DNA of 38,635 nucleotides from Nitrospirota bacterium (GTDB taxonomy: Bacteria; Nitrospirota; Leptospirillia; Leptospirillales; Leptospirillaceae): assembly GCA_023481175.1 (NCBI GenBank), contig JAMCWM010000018.1, positions 1 to 38,635 of the forward strand, read 5' to 3'. Position 1 is the stretch's first letter. Each line of letters opens with the position of its first letter. Shown here piece after piece: positions 523-6,906 of this stretch. The notes under the pieces were generated by a model. That model was not told the origin of the DNA. It saw only the letters and a program-made list of their open reading frames with translations, and made no database searches. Made by a program: the position numbers and the translations under genes.

Positions 523-542
523 GTAACCATTCGCCGAACCCA

Positions 543-1424
543 TCAGAGGGGGTCTGAGGTGAGGACCTGCCGGAAACGTCTGTGGAGAGGAAAGAGGTAG
601 ATGTCCTTGACGGGAAGGGCGTACTGGTTGAAGACGTCCTTCTTGCCCCGGCCCTGGGTCTTGCCGACATGGATCCAGTTGGCGGCCTTGTAGCAGGTTC
701 CCCGGAAGCGGTCGCACTCGACGAAGGTCTCGAGGAGGACGGGGGCGAATCCGTAGCGGTTCTCCCAGTCCTTGGGGAGCCGTTTGGCGGCGAGGGCGAG
801 GAGGCGGGAGGCAAGGTTTTTGGTGCGGATCCAGGGGAAGATGAGGAAGCGGGCGTTGTTGACGACGAGAGAAAGACGGGCTTCGCGGATCTCTCGGGAC
901 CAGCCGATCCAGAGGTCTCTGGGGGCGACCTTCCAGGCGGAGGCCCCGAAGCCGAGGCAGGCCAGGGGGATCTCTCCGGACCAGGCGATGTAGCGGATCT
1001 GGGCTCCGGGAAGGGTCTTGTGGCCGAGGTAGTGGTAGCGGTGGATGAAGTCGTTCCAGAGTTCGCTTTCGAGACGGGAGCCGACCGGACGCAGGGCAAG
1101 GTCCGGCCATCGCGGGAGGGGCCGGTCGTCGACCGGTCCGGGGTCGGTCCTGCCGGGATGGCGGATCGTCCAGGGACGCGGAGGCAGGCTTGTGGGGCTC
1201 TGTCTCCGGAGGGGAGGAAGAGTGAGCCGACCGTCCCGCTCCATGTCGAGGAGCGCCGCCCGACAGCTCATGTCCTTGAGGGAGCCGTTGGGCTTCGTCC
1301 ACCCGAAGATCCGGCAGATGCGTCGCGAGAGTTCCGTCCGGTGGAGGGTCGGATCCTCCCGGATCCAGGTTTGGATCTGAAGGATCTCGTCGGGAGAGAA
1401 ATCCCGTCCCGAATAGCGGATCAT
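543..1424 (-). CDS. DruA-like DUF4338 protein, IS66 passenger gene
   Basis: The 293-residue protein starts MIRYSGRDFSPDEIL. Its ATG (1422-1424) overlaps the transposase stop codon in ATGA, so translation is probably coupled. The N-terminal part has LSRRICRIFGW, PNGSLKDMSCRAALL and a basic RDGRLTLPP segment, the usual start of DUF4338 proteins. The C-terminal half has FIHRYHYLGHKTLPG, GW-REIREARLSLVVNN-RFLIFPW, a TFVECDRFRGTCYKAANW block, HVGKTQGRGKKD, and a final KDIYLFPL. These blocks match DruA of the Druantia anti-phage system and the many DruA-like proteins found with transposons. Length is in the family's usual range and no motif looks broken. The stop codon lies inside the left inverted repeat. 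The biochemical activity is not known to me; a role in transposition, target choice or phage resistance is only inference. Confidence 0.88.
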   Translation of the reverse strand: MIRYSGRDFSPDEILQIQTWIREDPTLHRTELSRRICRIFGWTKPNGSLKDMSCRAALLDMERDGRLTLPPLRRQSPTSLPPRPWTIRHPGRTDPGPVDDRPLPRWPDLALRPVGSRLESELWNDFIHRYHYLGHKTLPGAQIRYIAWSGEIPLACLGFGASAWKVAPRDLWIGWSREIREARLSLVVNNARFLIFPWIRTKNLASRLLALAAKRLPKDWENRYGFAPVLLETFVECDRFRGTCYKAANWIHVGKTQGRGKKDVFNQYALPVKDIYLFPLHRRFRQVLTSDPL

Positions 1425-3052
1425 CCCGAATCCTGAAGGGAGTTCCGGATGAGAGCCCGGCGTTCGGAGGACAGGGACCAGGGGAGCCAGGGAGAGAGAT
1501 CGGAGGGCGCCTGTCCCCGCCGGGCGCATTCCGACAGACAATCGGACAGAAGACGGCGGACATTGAGACCGGCCCTGTCCCAGGGGACGAAGAGCGAGTA
1601 GAGGGTCGCGGTCCGGGTTCCGCTCCATGGGGCCCCGACTCCGTAAAAGACCTTCCGGCCGGTGACGGCCCCGCGGAGGGCGCGCTCGGAGGCGTTGTTG
1701 TCCATCGGAATGCGGGGGTCGTCGACAAAGAGGACCAGGCCGTCCCAATGAATCAGCAGGCTCTGGAGAACCTTCCGGGCCACCGTCTCCCGGGAGCGTT
1801 CCATCCGGATCACTTCCTCCCGGGCCGTGGTCTTCATGTCGGAGAGAAGAGAGAGAACGGCGGTCCGGGCGGAAAGACTCCCCTGCCGCATTCGGGCGGT
1901 CTCGTGAAAGAGGGTGCCGATCCGGGAGGTCCAGGAGTCGGCCCAGGAGGCGAGAGCGGGTTTTTTGACGACGGCCTGGAGGAAGTCCCGTCGGACGTGG
2001 GCCCAGCAGAAGGCCAGGACCAGTCCCGGGATCTGCCGGGCGGTGGCCTTGTAGGCGCTGTACCGGTCGACCATCAGGACTCCGGGACGTCCGGCAAAGT
2101 GCTCGAGCGGGACTTTGGAACTGCGGGAGGGATCCAGGACGAAGAGCGACGTCTCGGGCGTCAGGATCACCCAGAGCCACCAGCGGGACGGGGCGGTCTT
2201 GGACCCGAAGACGTAGTACCGGGTTTCGTCGGCCTGGGAAAAGGAGGCCTCCCGGCTTTTCCGGACGATCGCCTCATGGAAGGGCTCCAGGAAGGAGGCG
2301 ATCCGTTCGAGTCCGGAAGTGACCGTCCCGAGGGACAGGTCGAGCCCCCTCCGGTTCCAGTCGGCCAGAAGCCGGGAGAGAGGGAGATGCAGGAAAAACT
2401 TGAAGAAGAGGACCTCGACCCAGATCGACACCCCCAGCATGCCTTTGGGAATGAGGCGGGGCGGAGGGGGGGCGGTCACGATCCCCTTCCCCTCCGGACA
2501 GGAGCAGGTCTTGCGATAGCGGTTCCGGTGGATGACCCGGCGATGCGGACGGACCTCGATCTCGAGGATCTCGGAGGTCTCGGGAGGGCCGAAAGGGGCA
2601 TAGGGCTTGTGGCAGGAGGAACAGACCGTCTCGTCGGCCGGAAGGTCGATCGTCTCGCTCACCGACGGAAGATGGTCGTGGCGTTTCCTTCCGACGCTCG
2701 GAACGCCCTTTTGATGCCCCCGGGGACGGGAGGGAGGAGGCGATCCGGTCTCCGGGCCTTGCGGACCTTTTCCCCCTTCGGCCTTTTTGCCGTAAAGGGC
2801 CTGGCGAAGACGACGGATCTCGGCCTCCTGATCGTGAATCCTGTCGTTGGCCTTCTCCAGAAGGTCCCGGTTGTGAAGGGCCTGGTACTTCCAGTAGGCG
2901 GCGTTCTGTTTGGGCGAGGTGGAGTGATCCCCCATGAGACCGGCGGTGTGGGAACACGTTCGGCAGGGTTCGGGGAGAAGGGACAGATCCGGAGTCACGA
3001 TCTCGACGTCGGATCCGGAAGGTGGTAGGAGAAGAGGCTCCACAGTGTTCAT
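1421..3052 (-). CDS. tnpC: IS66-family transposase (TnpC type)
   Basis: The 543-residue DDE transposase starts MNTVEPLLLPPSG. In order it has a leucine-zipper-like coiled coil around residues 55-88, a basic linker, a zinc-binding region (CSSC 144-147 and CSC 183-185), and the catalytic domain. That domain has ADETRYYVF (D275), MVDRYSAYK (D329), the CWAHVRRDF block, and DNNASERALR (E456) as the last acidic residue. All IS66 signature blocks are intact, so the enzyme looks active. The gene ends in a 4-bp overlap with the DruA-like gene. It starts about 80 bp inside the right inverted repeat. The first part (residues 1-45) is less conserved in the family, and a downstream start such as M40 is possible. 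Confidence 0.95.
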   Translation of the reverse strand: MNTVEPLLLPPSGSDVEIVTPDLSLLPEPCRTCSHTAGLMGDHSTSPKQNAAYWKYQALHNRDLLEKANDRIHDQEAEIRRLRQALYGKKAEGGKGPQGPETGSPPPSRPRGHQKGVPSVGRKRHDHLPSVSETIDLPADETVCSSCHKPYAPFGPPETSEILEIEVRPHRRVIHRNRYRKTCSCPEGKGIVTAPPPPRLIPKGMLGVSIWVEVLFFKFFLHLPLSRLLADWNRRGLDLSLGTVTSGLERIASFLEPFHEAIVRKSREASFSQADETRYYVFGSKTAPSRWWLWVILTPETSLFVLDPSRSSKVPLEHFAGRPGVLMVDRYSAYKATARQIPGLVLAFCWAHVRRDFLQAVVKKPALASWADSWTSRIGTLFHETARMRQGSLSARTAVLSLLSDMKTTAREEVIRMERSRETVARKVLQSLLIHWDGLVLFVDDPRIPMDNNASERALRGAVTGRKVFYGVGAPWSGTRTATLYSLFVPWDRAGLNVRRLLSDCLSECARRGQAPSDLSPWLPWSLSSERRALIRNSLQDSG

Positions 3053-3131
3053 GGATCATAGAAATACCACATTTAAAGCAAGGAGTCCAGTGCCTCCAGG
3101 AAAAGGGGGGACGGGATGGACGAATGCTTAC

Positions 3132-3139
3132 ATGGGGTG
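3132..3139. repeat. 8-bp target site duplication of the IS66 element, right copy (ATGGGGTG)
   Basis: This is an exact copy of 515-522, directly outside the right inverted repeat. It lies 4 bp beyond the stop codon of the fic gene, so insertion did not change the Fic protein but separated the gene from whatever followed it. Confidence 0.93.
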
Positions 3140-3143
3140 AGCA

Positions 3144-4364
3144 CTAAGTCTCCGGAAATAACCTCGGAAAAATCGTTTCGAGCGTATCGACCGGAAACCG
3201 CAGAGATAGAGGCCCCTTTGGCGTTTCAGAAGCCAGTAAGCCTGCGGCAATAACATCATTGACGATGCGCCGCGCGCTACGCTCCGGCAGGCGGGTGATG
3301 CGCGCAGCCTCGCCACGGTCGAATTTCCCGCGTATAAACGCTTCTTCCAGAAGTCTTGCGGATTCGGGCTTGAGGGTTTCGCTGCGTTCGACATAGGCTC
3401 GTAGACGTTTCTGTAGAACCTCGAACGCAAAGAGACCGGACATGAATGTGACCTGATCGAGGCAGATGCGTACGAACCAGAGAACGAAGTCAGAAAGGGC
3501 TCGTTCGGACAGGTTTCCGCGCCCATCCAGATCCCCCTGCCGTGGCATATCGGCTAAATCCATCATCTGTTTGTATTCGCCCCTGCTCGTGAGGCCGCGA
3601 GCCAATCCTCTGGAAATGGACCAAAGACCATGCGCGCCTATTCCTGACTTCAGCGCCATCGCGTGGCTCATGAGCCGGCTGACACGTCCGTTGCCGTCGG
3701 GGAACGGGTGAATGAAATTGAACCGGTGATGCGCGGCTGAAAGGGCCATGACACAGCTTGCCATGCCGAGGTCGGCCAGGCGATAGTGGTCCTCGAAATA
3801 GGCCATGAAATCCGCGACACGATCGCTGGAAGGCGGGATGTGACGACCCACGATGACGTCATGTTCGGGGCATGAGCGCAATTCGCCGGGAACCATAGTG
3901 AAGTCGCGACCCGCTCCATGAACACGGAGCATCTCAGGCGGGAGATCCTTGTAAAATTCCCGATGCAGCCAGCGGATGAAATCGACCGAGGCTGGCTCGG
4001 GAAGACGACCTTCTGCCATCATGCTGTCGACCTGCCTCTGGACACGGGCGTGGGCGGCTGCCTCAAGTTGCAGGTTGCGGCGTTCTTTATCGTTGTTGAG
4101 TTTGCCCTCAAGTGCGCGCTCAATGTCTCGCGGGCGCGTATTATGCCCTTCAATCAGGTTGCTATAATAGGTGTTCATGATGCGAACGAGGTCGGCGAGA
4201 TTAGCGGCGGTTTCGGGATTGAGCGTGCGTCCTAAAGTGGCGGAAGTAGCGGTGAGTTCCGCAATAACATTGGCAATCTCCTCCGACGGTTTTTCCAGGC
4301 GGGTCGGCTCAATGCGATAGGGTGTCTCAAAATTGGTCATTTTGGCCGATGTTTGTGTGTTCAT
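3144..4364 (-). CDS. fic: Fic-domain adenylyltransferase (class II, self-inhibited)
   Basis: The 406-residue protein has the full Fic motif HPFPDGNGRVSR (H219-R230): catalytic His219, Asp222 and the GNGR nucleotide-binding loop. SNLIEG at residues 68-73 fits the inhibitory helix (S/T)xxxE(G/N) placed before the Fic core, which defines class II Fic proteins; Glu72 would block the active site. The family transfers AMP, or less often another group, from a nucleotide to a hydroxyl of a target protein. The C-terminal 60 residues look like a winged helix-turn-helix (ARITRLPERSARRIVNDVIAAGLL), common in this subfamily and compatible with DNA binding. MNTQTSAK precedes the conserved MTNFETPYRIEP, so ATG 4340 is an alternative start. 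No antitoxin gene is adjacent. Confidence 0.93.
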   Translation of the reverse strand: MNTQTSAKMTNFETPYRIEPTRLEKPSEEIANVIAELTATSATLGRTLNPETAANLADLVRIMNTYYSNLIEGHNTRPRDIERALEGKLNNDKERRNLQLEAAAHARVQRQVDSMMAEGRLPEPASVDFIRWLHREFYKDLPPEMLRVHGAGRDFTMVPGELRSCPEHDVIVGRHIPPSSDRVADFMAYFEDHYRLADLGMASCVMALSAAHHRFNFIHPFPDGNGRVSRLMSHAMALKSGIGAHGLWSISRGLARGLTSRGEYKQMMDLADMPRQGDLDGRGNLSERALSDFVLWFVRICLDQVTFMSGLFAFEVLQKRLRAYVERSETLKPESARLLEEAFIRGKFDRGEAARITRLPERSARRIVNDVIAAGLLASETPKGPLSLRFPVDTLETIFPRLFPET

Positions 4365-4552: not shown

Positions 4553-4793
4553 TCTCCCTCTTCTGTCTCCCCGGTCATCCTTCCTGATTCTTCTCGAACC
4601 CTCCTCCCCCGATCTCTCCCAACTCCTGCGTGTTCATCTCGTGGGCCTCGGGACCTGAGTAGATACAAGAAAAGAATGGCAATCTCCCGCACTCATATCC
4701 TCCCCAAAATCTGACGTGCACCCGGAATGGAGCCAGAATTTCCTTTTTTCACAAAAATAGTGCAACATTAATTTCGTGAAAAAGGAGGTTTTG

Positions 4794-5030
4794 ATGAAAA
4801 AAAACATCACGATCGCCATCGACGACCGGCTTGCCAGGGAGGCGCGGATTCTTGCCGCCAAGAAGGACACGAGCGTTTCGGGGCTACTGGCCGATTTTCT
4901 GGAGTCCATCGTGGAAAACGAAAACCGTAGGGAAACGGCGAAAAACCATTTTTTCAACTTGGCGAAGACGGGATACGACCTGAATTATTCGCAGAGAACA
5001 TTCGACCGGAACGCGCTCCATGAGCGGTAG
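4794..5030 (+). CDS. vapB: Ribbon-helix-helix-type antitoxin of a PIN-toxin module
   Basis: The 78-residue protein starts MKKNITIAIDDRLAREARILA, the N-terminal beta strand and helix of ribbon-helix-helix DNA-binding antitoxins. A helix (TSVSGLLADFLESIVE) follows, then a flexible C-terminal tail that would wrap the toxin. ATG 4794 is chosen because AAAGGAGG sits 5 bases in front of it; the in-frame GTG at 4776 is upstream of that ribosome site. The stop overlaps the toxin start by 11 bp, the usual coupling. It should neutralise the adjacent PIN toxin and repress the operon. Confidence 0.85.
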   Translation: MKKNITIAIDDRLAREARILAAKKDTSVSGLLADFLESIVENENRRETAKNHFFNLAKTGYDLNYSQRTFDRNALHER

Positions 5031-5439
5031 GATTTTTGTGGATACGAACGTTCTGGTTTATTGCTTCGACCGGTCCGCCCCGGACAAGATGAACACGGCA
5101 CATGCGCTCGTGAACAATCTCTGGGACAACGAAAACGGGGTTCTGAGCCTGCAGGTGCTCAAGGAGTTTTTCGTGACGGTGACGTCGAAGCTGGCGGTCA
5201 GGATGGATCCCCAATCGGCCAAGTCGGCCGTCTTCGACCTCATGAGCTGGACGCTGGTTTACGAAGACCGCCGGTCCATGGAAAAAGCCTTCGAGATCGC
5301 GGAAAACTTTCGTCTGTCGTTTTGGGACGCAAACATCCTGAGCGCCGCTCTCCTGTCGAACTGTGAAGCGCTGTACACCGAAGACCTTCAGCATGGGCAG
5401 AGCATCGATGGCCTCCGGATCGTCAACCCTTTCCTATGA
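5020..5439 (+). CDS. vapC: PIN-domain ribonuclease toxin (VapC family)
   Basis: The 139-residue protein starts MSGRIFVDTNVLVYCFD. The acidic PIN residues are visible: Asp in VDTNVLVY, Glu in LQVLKEFF, Asp in SFWDANILSAAL, and Asp in YTEDLQHG. PIN toxins of this type are magnesium-dependent RNases that usually cut tRNA or rRNA. Length is normal and no motif is broken. It overlaps its antitoxin gene by 11 bp. The ISL3 element begins 60 bp after the stop codon, so this module survived that insertion intact. Confidence 0.9.
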   Translation: MSGRIFVDTNVLVYCFDRSAPDKMNTAHALVNNLWDNENGVLSLQVLKEFFVTVTSKLAVRMDPQSAKSAVFDLMSWTLVYEDRRSMEKAFEIAENFRLSFWDANILSAALLSNCEALYTEDLQHGQSIDGLRIVNPFL

Positions 5440-5499: not shown

Positions 5500-6906
5500 G
5501 GCACTTCCGGATAATTCGTGGGTCGTTATTAAATGATAACGTAAGACTGATCTATCGAGAGAATTGAAGAGTGCATCCTGCTCCGTTTTCTGAGATGATA
5601 GGTTGTCCTAAAACCTTAACATCAAAAGAAAGGAAACAGGATGCAGATCATTACTATCCTCAATCTTGTCCAAAAATTCAAGTCCTTCGTCTACACCAAG
5701 GCCCAATGGGCTTCCGCGGAGAAACACGCCATTGAGATCTTTGTCGAGCCACGATCCAACAGTCGTCCGCAGTGTGGAAATTGCTTCAAACGGTGTCCCG
5801 GCTACGATCGGCTACCCACGAGATGGTTTCCGTTCGTCCCGCTCTGGGGAATCCCGGTGTTTCTCGTCTACTCGCCTCGGCGGGTGGACTGTCCCCGGTG
5901 TCAGGTCAAGGTGGAAAGCATGCCCTGGACGCTTCCCCACAACCCCAAGAGCCCGCTTACGGAAGCCTTCGCCTGGTTTCTGGCCCGGTGGGCCAAGCGG
6001 TTGTCCTGGAAGGAGACGGCCGAGGCGTTCCACACCACATGGGACGCTGTCTACCAGTCGGTGGCAATGGCCGTCTCCTGGGGCCGGGAACACATGAGCA
6101 CGGCCGGGATCCTGTCCATCGGGATCGACGAGATCGCCCTCAAAAAAGGCCATACCTACATCACGTTGGTGTACCAGATCGACGAGAACTGCAAACGCCT
6201 TCTGTGGATCGGCCAGGATCGGACGATGGAGACTCTCCGCGGCTTCTTCGACTGGCTGGGAGCGGAAAAAAGCGCGAGTCTCAAGTTTGTCGCCTCCGAT
6301 ATGTGGAAGGCCTACCTGACAGTCATTGCCGAGAAGGCCTCCCAGGCCATACATATTCTCGATCGATTCCACATAATGAGTCACATGGGAAAGGCGATCG
6401 ACGAGGTCCGGTCCGATGAGGTCCGCTCCCTGAAGAGCAAAGGGAAAAAACCTGTCCTGTCCAAGTCGAAGTGGATCCTCCTCCGTCGGCGGGAAAACCT
6501 CACCGACTCCCAGGAATCCCGCTTGTCGGAACTCTTGGGGTGCAACCTGAAAACGGTCCGGGCCTATCTGCTGAAAGAGTCCTTCCAGGCCTTCTGGGAG
6601 TATGTCTCTCCCGCATGGGCCGGAAAGTTCCTCGACGCATGGATCACCCGCGTTCTCCGATCGAGACTTGATCCCATGAAGAAGGTGGCACGGATGCTCA
6701 GGGGGCATCGCCCCCTGATTCTGAACTGGTTCCGTGCCAAAGGACAGGTCTCGAGCGGAACTGTCGAAGGCTTCAACACAAAAGCGAAACTGACCTCGAG
6801 AAAAGCGTACGGATTTCGGACCTTTAAATCACAAGAAGTTGCGCTTTATCACACACTTGGCAATTTGCCTACTCCAGATTTTACCCACGAATTCTTCTGA
6901 GGAGCC
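5500..6906 (+). mobile_element. Complete ISL3-family insertion sequence
   Basis: The element is 1,407 bp. The left end reads GGCACTTCCGGATAATTCGT (5500 onward). The reverse complement of the right end reads GGCTCCTCAGAAGAATTCGT. The repeats are about 24 bp (5500-5523 and 6883-6906) with about 18 matches, including an unbroken AATTCGTGGGT. Eight identical bases, ATCGAGAT, flank both ends. One intact transposase gene fills the element. It sits between two TA modules and disrupts neither. Confidence 0.95.
5641..6900 (+). CDS. tnpA: ISL3-family transposase
   Basis: The 419-residue DDE transposase starts MQIITILNLVQKFKSF. It has an N-terminal zinc-finger region (CGNC 45-48, CPRC 84-87) and a helix-turn-helix segment near 121-145. 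The catalytic residues are IGIDEIALKKGH (D163), ASDMWKAY (D220) and GTVEGFNTKAKLTSRKAYGF (E376), the standard ISL3 signature. The ribosome site AAGGAAACAGG is adjacent to the ATG. The gene is intact, and its stop codon (6898-6900) lies inside the right inverted repeat, so the end of the element also encodes the last residues (HEFF). Confidence 0.95.
   Translation: MQIITILNLVQKFKSFVYTKAQWASAEKHAIEIFVEPRSNSRPQCGNCFKRCPGYDRLPTRWFPFVPLWGIPVFLVYSPRRVDCPRCQVKVESMPWTLPHNPKSPLTEAFAWFLARWAKRLSWKETAEAFHTTWDAVYQSVAMAVSWGREHMSTAGILSIGIDEIALKKGHTYITLVYQIDENCKRLLWIGQDRTMETLRGFFDWLGAEKSASLKFVASDMWKAYLTVIAEKASQAIHILDRFHIMSHMGKAIDEVRSDEVRSLKSKGKKPVLSKSKWILLRRRENLTDSQESRLSELLGCNLKTVRAYLLKESFQAFWEYVSPAWAGKFLDAWITRVLRSRLDPMKKVARMLRGHRPLILNWFRAKGQVSSGTVEGFNTKAKLTSRKAYGFRTFKSQEVALYHTLGNLPTPDFTHEFF

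Follow-up and report, generated by a model that had tools for sequence, protein, structure and literature searches.

What does a gene of the DruA family, named after a component of Druantia anti-phage systems, do inside an insertion sequence (IS)? Insertion sequences are usually thought to need a transposase alone, plus small accessory proteins in the IS66 family. The question is raised by a 2,609 bp IS66-type element of a Nitrospirota bacterium (GenBank assembly GCA_023481175.1, contig JAMCWM010000018.1, positions 1 to 38,635; this whole stretch of 38,635 nucleotides is called the window). The element occupies positions 523–3131 and carries just two genes, tnpC and a druA-like gene, both on the minus strand. 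Our results support the conclusion that druA is a regular transposase partner and not a one-off capture, and we discuss whether its product may be a relative of the DNA-modifying protein Mom of phage Mu that acts alongside the transposase.

The limits of the element were read directly. A perfect 8-bp target-site duplication, ATGGGGTG, stands on its left (515–522) and on its right (3132–3139). The terminal inverted repeats, GTAACCATTCGCCGAACCC... on the druA side (523–546) and GTAAGCATTCG... on the minus strand on the tnpC side (3108–3131), are identical at 17 of 24 positions when GTAACCATTCGCCGAACCCATCAG is compared with the reverse complement GTAAGCATTCGTCCATCCCGTCCC, and by a simple binomial estimate ~2e-5 matches this good would be expected by chance in a 300×300 search. 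Relatives have similar GTAA..ATTCG..GAACCC ends on the druA side and comparable ends on the tnpC side. Elsewhere in the assembly, three contigs (C37, C18 and C14) terminate in identical pieces of these ends (228, 127 and 126 bp, 100% identity). The 8-bp flanks of the pieces are three different ones, so that the assembly contains at least three, and most likely four, insertion sites. GTAA-tipped inverted ends and an 8-bp target duplication are features of the IS66 family, and the element has both, together with the IS66 DDE domain: tnpC (1421–3052, minus strand, 543 aa) matched PF03050 (E=9.9e-56) and NF033517 (E=4.6e-83, above cut-off). Re-reading of the ends and the Pfam and NCBIfam matches thus confirmed the original prediction, which was made from the letters alone, of a two-gene IS66 element with GTAA-tipped ends and a perfect 8-bp duplication at 523–3131.

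Canonical IS66 members carry tnpA and tnpB, and tnpC-only members exist. Neither accessory gene is present in the window element, as the prediction had stated, and neither could fit, because just 99 nt lie outside tnpC and druA. The druA-like gene (543–1424, minus strand, 293 aa) encodes a protein that matched PF14236 (DruA/DUF4338) with E=1.4e-43 and 149.6 bits, against a curated cut-off of 27. The family assignment of the prediction is thereby upheld, and the possibility it had named against itself, that a profile search would reveal no relation to DruA, falls away; NCBIfam holds no model that matches the druA product. The start of druA overlaps the tnpC stop in an ATGA at 1421–1424 on the minus strand, exactly as predicted. 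The accompanying description of the two genes as "translationally fused" stands only in part: the overlap suggests coupled translation, and the window copy encodes no fused protein.

We searched for further copies of the pair in one genome per species (84,980 species). First scans with the single protein as query against genome contigs and viral contigs yielded no relatives, and an alignment of relatives as query detected at least 573 encoding stretches. The best 80 of these were analysed as genome loci, a choice biased towards DruAs that resemble that of the window and including 13 loci of one Accumulibacter genome (ACC003). An IS66-type tnpC stood directly upstream of druA at 54 of the 80 loci, at some of them by a partial or weak match. 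Six of the other 26 had druA before an IS66 tnpC and seven a Tn5-like transposase; L096 was IS701-like, L149 ISAs1-like, and L106 and L123 carried another Pfam-confirmed DDE transposase; L125, L142 and L148 resemble L123 in appearance. No transposase was found beside druA at the remaining six (L098, L138, L141, L147, L150 and L151). By record title, the tnpC-druA loci belong to Acidobacteriota, Pseudomonadota, Bacillota, Planctomycetota, Verrucomicrobiota, Spirochaetota, Thermodesulfobacteriota and Actinomycetota, although most source genomes are metagenome-assembled and individual phylum assignments may be wrong. The tie of druA to the transposase thus extends beyond the window, with recurrent pairs in eight phyla by record title.

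Matching ends and a perfect 8-bp duplication were found round tnpC-druA in 20 of the 54 relatives. Twelve of the 20 are copies in ACC003, where 12 of the 13 tnpC-druA copies examined have such duplications; the other eight (L099, L110, L112, L114, L115, L121, L129 and L133) are from Pseudomonadota, Bacillota and Thermodesulfobacteriota. Many of the 54 contigs are short; at the other 34 loci no perfect duplication with matching ends was found, and the duplication of L130 was identical at seven of eight positions. The search of genomes for DUF4338 behind IS66 transposases within shared ends, which the prediction had proposed, has thus given a positive answer. These recurrent pairs, ends and duplications rule out a one-off capture of druA.

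The pairing was also counted from the side of tnpC in 30 genomes, all of them picked for holding druA. Among the matches listed (84 rows for druA; for tnpC, segments, so that one gene may count twice), 64 of 82 tnpC segments had druA at most 164 nt downstream. Twelve of the remaining 18 had it 323–3,796 nt downstream and six had none within 4 kb, four of these six at ≤32% identity. In a plasmid collection, relatives occurred in two records only, and tnpC gave no plasmid match at 1e-40. One contig of a viral collection bears the order druA, then IS66 tnpC, twice, once close to either end (L153, L154).

The coupling of the two genes is well supported. Among 30 unfused relatives with a tnpC stop, 23 had an NTGA overlap between this stop and a possible druA start. 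Since NTGA arises easily once the genes share that relative frame, the 20 cases of ATGA carry more weight than the total. At L119 (808 aa) and L135 (824 aa), TnpC and DruA form a single protein in which both Pfam domains are present. The ratio of nonsynonymous to synonymous substitution rates (dN/dS) was 0.09–0.28 for druA and 0.12–0.42 for tnpC in the eight of nine pairs for which it could be computed, and lower for druA in seven of the eight; some sequences occur in more than one of these pairs, and in several pairs synonymous change is close to saturation or beyond it. druA is under purifying selection. In 31 of the 34 IS66 tnpC-druA rows, TnpC and DruA distances were correlated (Mantel r 0.73; none of 9,999 permutations was as high), and DruA was the more conserved of the two in 464 of 465 pairwise comparisons.

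The partnership is not without exceptions. In the genus of the window, an IS66-type element without druA, L224 (G006:C59), has ends of the same kind and is flanked by an 8-bp duplication, GATCGAAC; the reading frames of its tnpC are broken, as they are in L227, apparently the same element in a second genome. Also in this genus, no druA follows the related tnpC of L225, whose left end is missing. Thus, druA is not strictly needed and is dispensable at least sometimes, and its role as an obligate partner is ruled out by L224/L227 and L225. The original prediction had counted related IS66 copies with the same ends and without druA, combined with a one-off capture, as grounds for its refutation: a copy of that kind exists in L224, and the capture is no one-off. 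A quick tree of 52 TnpC rows placed the window in a clade of 30, made up of 28 tnpC-druA rows, the druA-less L225 and, in addition, L226. More distant IS66 transposases of the phylum (L289–L294) had no druA in the stretch fetched. We read L224 and L225 as probable losses of druA, judging from a sample that was steered by druA. The suggestion that DruA replaces TnpA and TnpB is rejected, since in L122 and L277 druA and tnpC come after a gene for TnpB that Pfam confirms; the first open reading frame of L122, which occupies the tnpA position, gave no hit to Pfam.

The DruA domain also occurs with other transposases. It is fused N-terminally to Tn5-like, IS701 and ISAs1 transposases, and a second IS66 set, which includes L122 and L277, has druA ahead of tnpC; one of its members (L155) shows matching ends and an 8-bp duplication. 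A Tn5-like transposase followed by druA lies inside matching ends at L105 (8-bp duplication) and L127 (9-bp duplication); six loci of this kind were searched, and the remaining four yielded no ends with a duplication. In ACC003, a second repeated element has druA followed by an ISAs1-like transposase, and the two copies compared (L228, L235) are 99.9% identical over 2,819 bp, each with its own 9-bp duplication. This genome also has at least 19 druA matches of ~35% identity, apparently of the same druA-ISAs1-like kind.

In a quick DruA tree of 92 sequences the partner label changed at least 16 times. The labels, which were taken from neighbour matches, comprised two IS66 gene orders, Tn5, IS701, ISAs1, other DDE and defence. 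Both this tree and that of TnpC have long branches. Well-supported branches of the DruA tree force at least two changes for Tn5, at least two for IS701 and at least one for ISAs1, and therefore repeated movement of the domain from one transposase family to another is probable. No other argument speaks as strongly for a role of DruA in transposition as such, rather than with any single transposase.

In the phylum of the window, 25 of 245 genomes hold 39 places with PF14236. A same-strand transposase lay within 1.9 kb of 25 of these places, in a count whose reference transposases include some from the same loci and whose sample contains many close relatives. Six places encode long DruAs without a transposase, three are lone genes and five are unresolved fragments or contig ends. 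The lone genes (L040–L042), from three genomes of the genus of the window, are ~56–59% identical to the window protein, share one conserved chromosomal neighbourhood and are under purifying selection (dN/dS 0.13–0.17); they are perhaps a domesticated copy.

What kind of protein is DruA? A structure model of the window protein (mean predicted local distance difference test score, pLDDT, 90.7) comprises an N-terminal helical part, which we infer to be a winged helix, and a mixed alpha/beta domain. Foldseek returned 50 PDB matches at E≤0.001, all of them described as acetyltransferases or related acyl-transferring enzymes, with template modelling (TM) scores of 0.25–0.39 when normalised by query length. 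TmcA ranked first, RimI second and phage Mu Mom (8bv8) fourth (E=5.8e-5). Because TmcA and RimI rank higher, the fold alone cannot single out Mom. Excerpts of PMC10853773 already assign DUF4338 as a GNAT (Gcn5-related N-acetyltransferase), and according to excerpts of PMC7824862 Mom transfers an acyl group to adenine N6.

Profile comparisons are more specific. From the druA matches, we excluded five in which a stop or break left fewer than 270 residues and dropped near-copies of >85% identity, which left 61; of these, 57 were aligned together with the window protein (L097, L126, L144 and L146 were omitted). When 24,736 Pfam models were run against these 58 members, Mom matched 29 of 58 at E≤0.1 (best 7.9e-6). 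Besides DruA, the other matching models were PaaX (two members), TCAD9 (one) and DUF3557 (one), which leaves Mom as the sole other GNAT-type model. Alignment of nine Mom proteins with the 58 DruAs by hhalign gave a probability of 93.4% (E=2.4e-7, ~18% identity), and DruA and Mom have in common the motif order HY, N-x-x-S, [ST]-F-x-[DE] and G-x-x-Y-x-A-x-N-[FW]. A sequence search of the PDB with the DruA profile yielded five weak matches, all to unrelated proteins.

The alignment also places candidate catalytic residues. PDB entry 8bv8, titled 'inactive mutant S124A', differs from phage Mu Mom, besides the first residue, at one serine (the numbering is offset by ten). This serine, Ala in the mutant, aligns with Ser206 of the window protein (codon 807–809, minus strand). 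At this position, 57 of the 58 members have Ser, as do 83 of 86 sequences of a wider set excluding the defence type. His131, R192 and Y245 are invariant in all 58; His131 (codon 1032–1034, minus strand), in the motif HYLG, aligns with Mom His48 in the motif HYS. The aligned IS701 and ISAs1 fusions keep the GNAT part, and the N-terminal part is absent from them. Taken together, these comparisons suggest that IS-borne DruA is a distant, GNAT-type relative of phage Mu Mom.

The same family name links the protein to anti-phage defence, and the original prediction had described a Druantia-type defence gene. This description did not hold up: the PADLOC models gave no match for the window protein even at E 10, and DruA1 matched 52 of the 58 relatives only weakly (best 7.2e-7). 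The six long DruAs of the phylum (L265–L270), which lie in operon-like clusters, are split from the other 86 DruA sequences by a very long branch in the quick tree. Four of them scanned with PADLOC gave E values of 2e-82 to 1e-122, and in three scanned with Pfam DruA was matched and Mom was not. His131, Ser206 and the other such residues are not conserved in the long DruAs, with an uncertain alignment between the groups. A HerA-like ATPase adjoins the long druA at L265 and L266, the two loci scanned for it, and the clusters include a protein of ~385–400 aa, for which Pfam gave no match in either of two cases scanned; L265–L270 have the appearance of a DruA-HerA defence system that lacks part of the Druantia set. 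Since the long DruAs form a far clade and PADLOC misses the window protein, "DruA" names a family and not a defence function. As far as tested with PADLOC and the DruA tree, close kinship with Druantia is rejected. A tree of IS-linked and Druantia-linked copies, as the prediction had proposed, kept the IS-linked and the defence-type long DruAs apart, and its 92 sequences include no DruA of a complete Druantia system, no complete Druantia locus having been identified in the genomes searched.

We consider it slightly short of an even chance that DruA is a Mom-like GNAT enzyme, coupled to the transposase of an IS66-type element, that transfers acyl groups to nucleic acid; catalysis, DNA as the substrate and the purpose of the modification are what we infer here. 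DruA would be made together with the transposase, would bind DNA via its helical N-terminus and, during transposase action, would acylate a base in the element or at the junction, the simplest target being an adenine amino group by analogy with Mom. Such a modification could keep host nucleases away from the transposition intermediate or from the newly made copy, or it could serve as a label for the ends. The wider proposal, that several IS families carry or are fused to a Mom-type base-modifying enzyme, that this is an overlooked general step of DDE transposition and that Druantia-type DruA is a divergent branch, is a more tentative one, which we think somewhat more doubtful than probable.

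Several observations weigh against a Mom-like acyltransferase. The superposition with Mom is poor (TM 0.38/0.52, root mean square deviation 6.6), and RNA- and protein-modifying GNATs (TmcA, RimI) outrank Mom in Foldseek. The window protein itself has no match to the Pfam Mom model, and the one member for which a bit score is available reached 19.6 bits, below the Pfam cut-off of 27.1. At the Mom-like position Asn249, Gly is found in five of seven IS701 and four of seven ISAs1 sequences. The correlation of TnpC and DruA distances may partly stem from common descent alone, and the druA-less L224 and L225 are relatives in the very genus of the window. Mom protects phage DNA, and an IS would have no obvious need for such protection. 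The literature searched yielded no measured activity.

The main rival is an unlikely but serious one, namely that DruA, as a GNAT, raises or lowers transposition by acylation of the transposase or of a host protein. Several of the top structural matches are indeed protein acetyltransferases (RimI, Naa60, NatE), fusion to or overlap with the transposase would place the enzyme on its substrate, and the correlated TnpC and DruA distances fit as well. However, because several transposase families pair with DruA, a common protein target is less likely than common DNA, and the matching GNAT-type Pfam family besides DruA is that of a DNA modifier, Mom. A non-catalytic DNA-binding subunit, acting on the ends, in target choice or structurally with the GNAT fold as a scaffold, would explain the winged-helix-like N-terminus of the model, and it suits an element that lacks tnpA and tnpB and has a druA-less relative (L224) with the same kind of ends. 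The near invariance of the Mom-equivalent residues and the IS701/ISAs1 fusions, which retain the GNAT part and not the N-terminal one, make this improbable.

We give a lower probability still to anti-phage or anti-plasmid cargo, even though Pfam places the protein in one family with Druantia DruA, weak PADLOC DruA1 matches are widespread among the relatives and related long DruAs lie in defence-like operons. The IS-type DruAs fall in a clade far from the defence type, in which, on an uncertain alignment, the Mom-like residues are not conserved; one would not expect cargo to overlap or be joined with transposases of several kinds, or to match or exceed the transposase in conservation. The least probable reading, to which we assign little weight, makes DruA an RNA- or tRNA-directed GNAT, a modifier or toxin that regulates or addicts. 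Its attraction is that the top Foldseek match, TmcA, is a tRNA(Met) cytidine acetyltransferase, but a two-gene element holds no partner antitoxin gene, and fusion to transposases speaks against it.

Around the element, the Fic protein gene (3144–4364) ends four bases from the duplication, and a DUF6364/PIN pair (4776–5439), toxin-antitoxin-like in appearance, and an ISL3 transposase (5641–6900) follow. These are the nearest among the ten window open reading frames scanned, and none of the Druantia partners such as DruE lies beside the two-gene element. Elsewhere in the assembly (C14:35223-35522, C5:22657-22778 and C40:8228-8333) there are degenerate fragments that derive from other druA-like genes or from the druA end of the element.

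A conserved enzyme that is coupled to the IS66 transposase and found again with Tn5-like, IS701 and ISAs1-like transposases would point to an unknown step in transposition, and the recurrence of the pairing across bacteria and transposase kinds suggests an overlooked transposition partner. The link to Mom makes the idea directly testable, by way of a modified base, and gives a family so far described as having no known function a hypothetical catalytic role. Because many Pfam-labelled DruA genes are transposon parts, counts of defence genes from PF14236 alone would be inflated. The literature searched, including excerpts of PMC8565338, contained no report of a DruA-IS66 pairing, and the excerpted papers on DUF4338 comprise a GNAT assignment, a description of Druantia and a table entry.

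Several known systems invite comparison. With tnpC-only IS66 elements, the window element shares the IS66 DDE transposase, the GTAA-tipped ends, the 8-bp duplication and the lack of tnpA and tnpB, but it adds druA, joined to tnpC by the stop/start overlap. This tnpC-only type is the ISBst12-like subgroup. Druantia DruA and PADLOC DruA1 have the PF14236 family in common with the window protein, which in contrast to the long DruAs (~380–390 aa) has 293 aa, is a transposase partner, lacks a PADLOC match and is set apart by a very long branch. Phage Mu, the carrier of Mom, is itself a transposing element. Its Mom (PF25680, PDB 8bv8) shares the predicted GNAT-type fold and the ordered motifs, whereas the window protein has an extra N-terminal part and belongs to an IS and not to a phage. 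In the DUF4338-DndF fusion, as described in excerpts of PMC10853773, the domain is likewise a GNAT, but its partner there is a defence protein and not a transposase.

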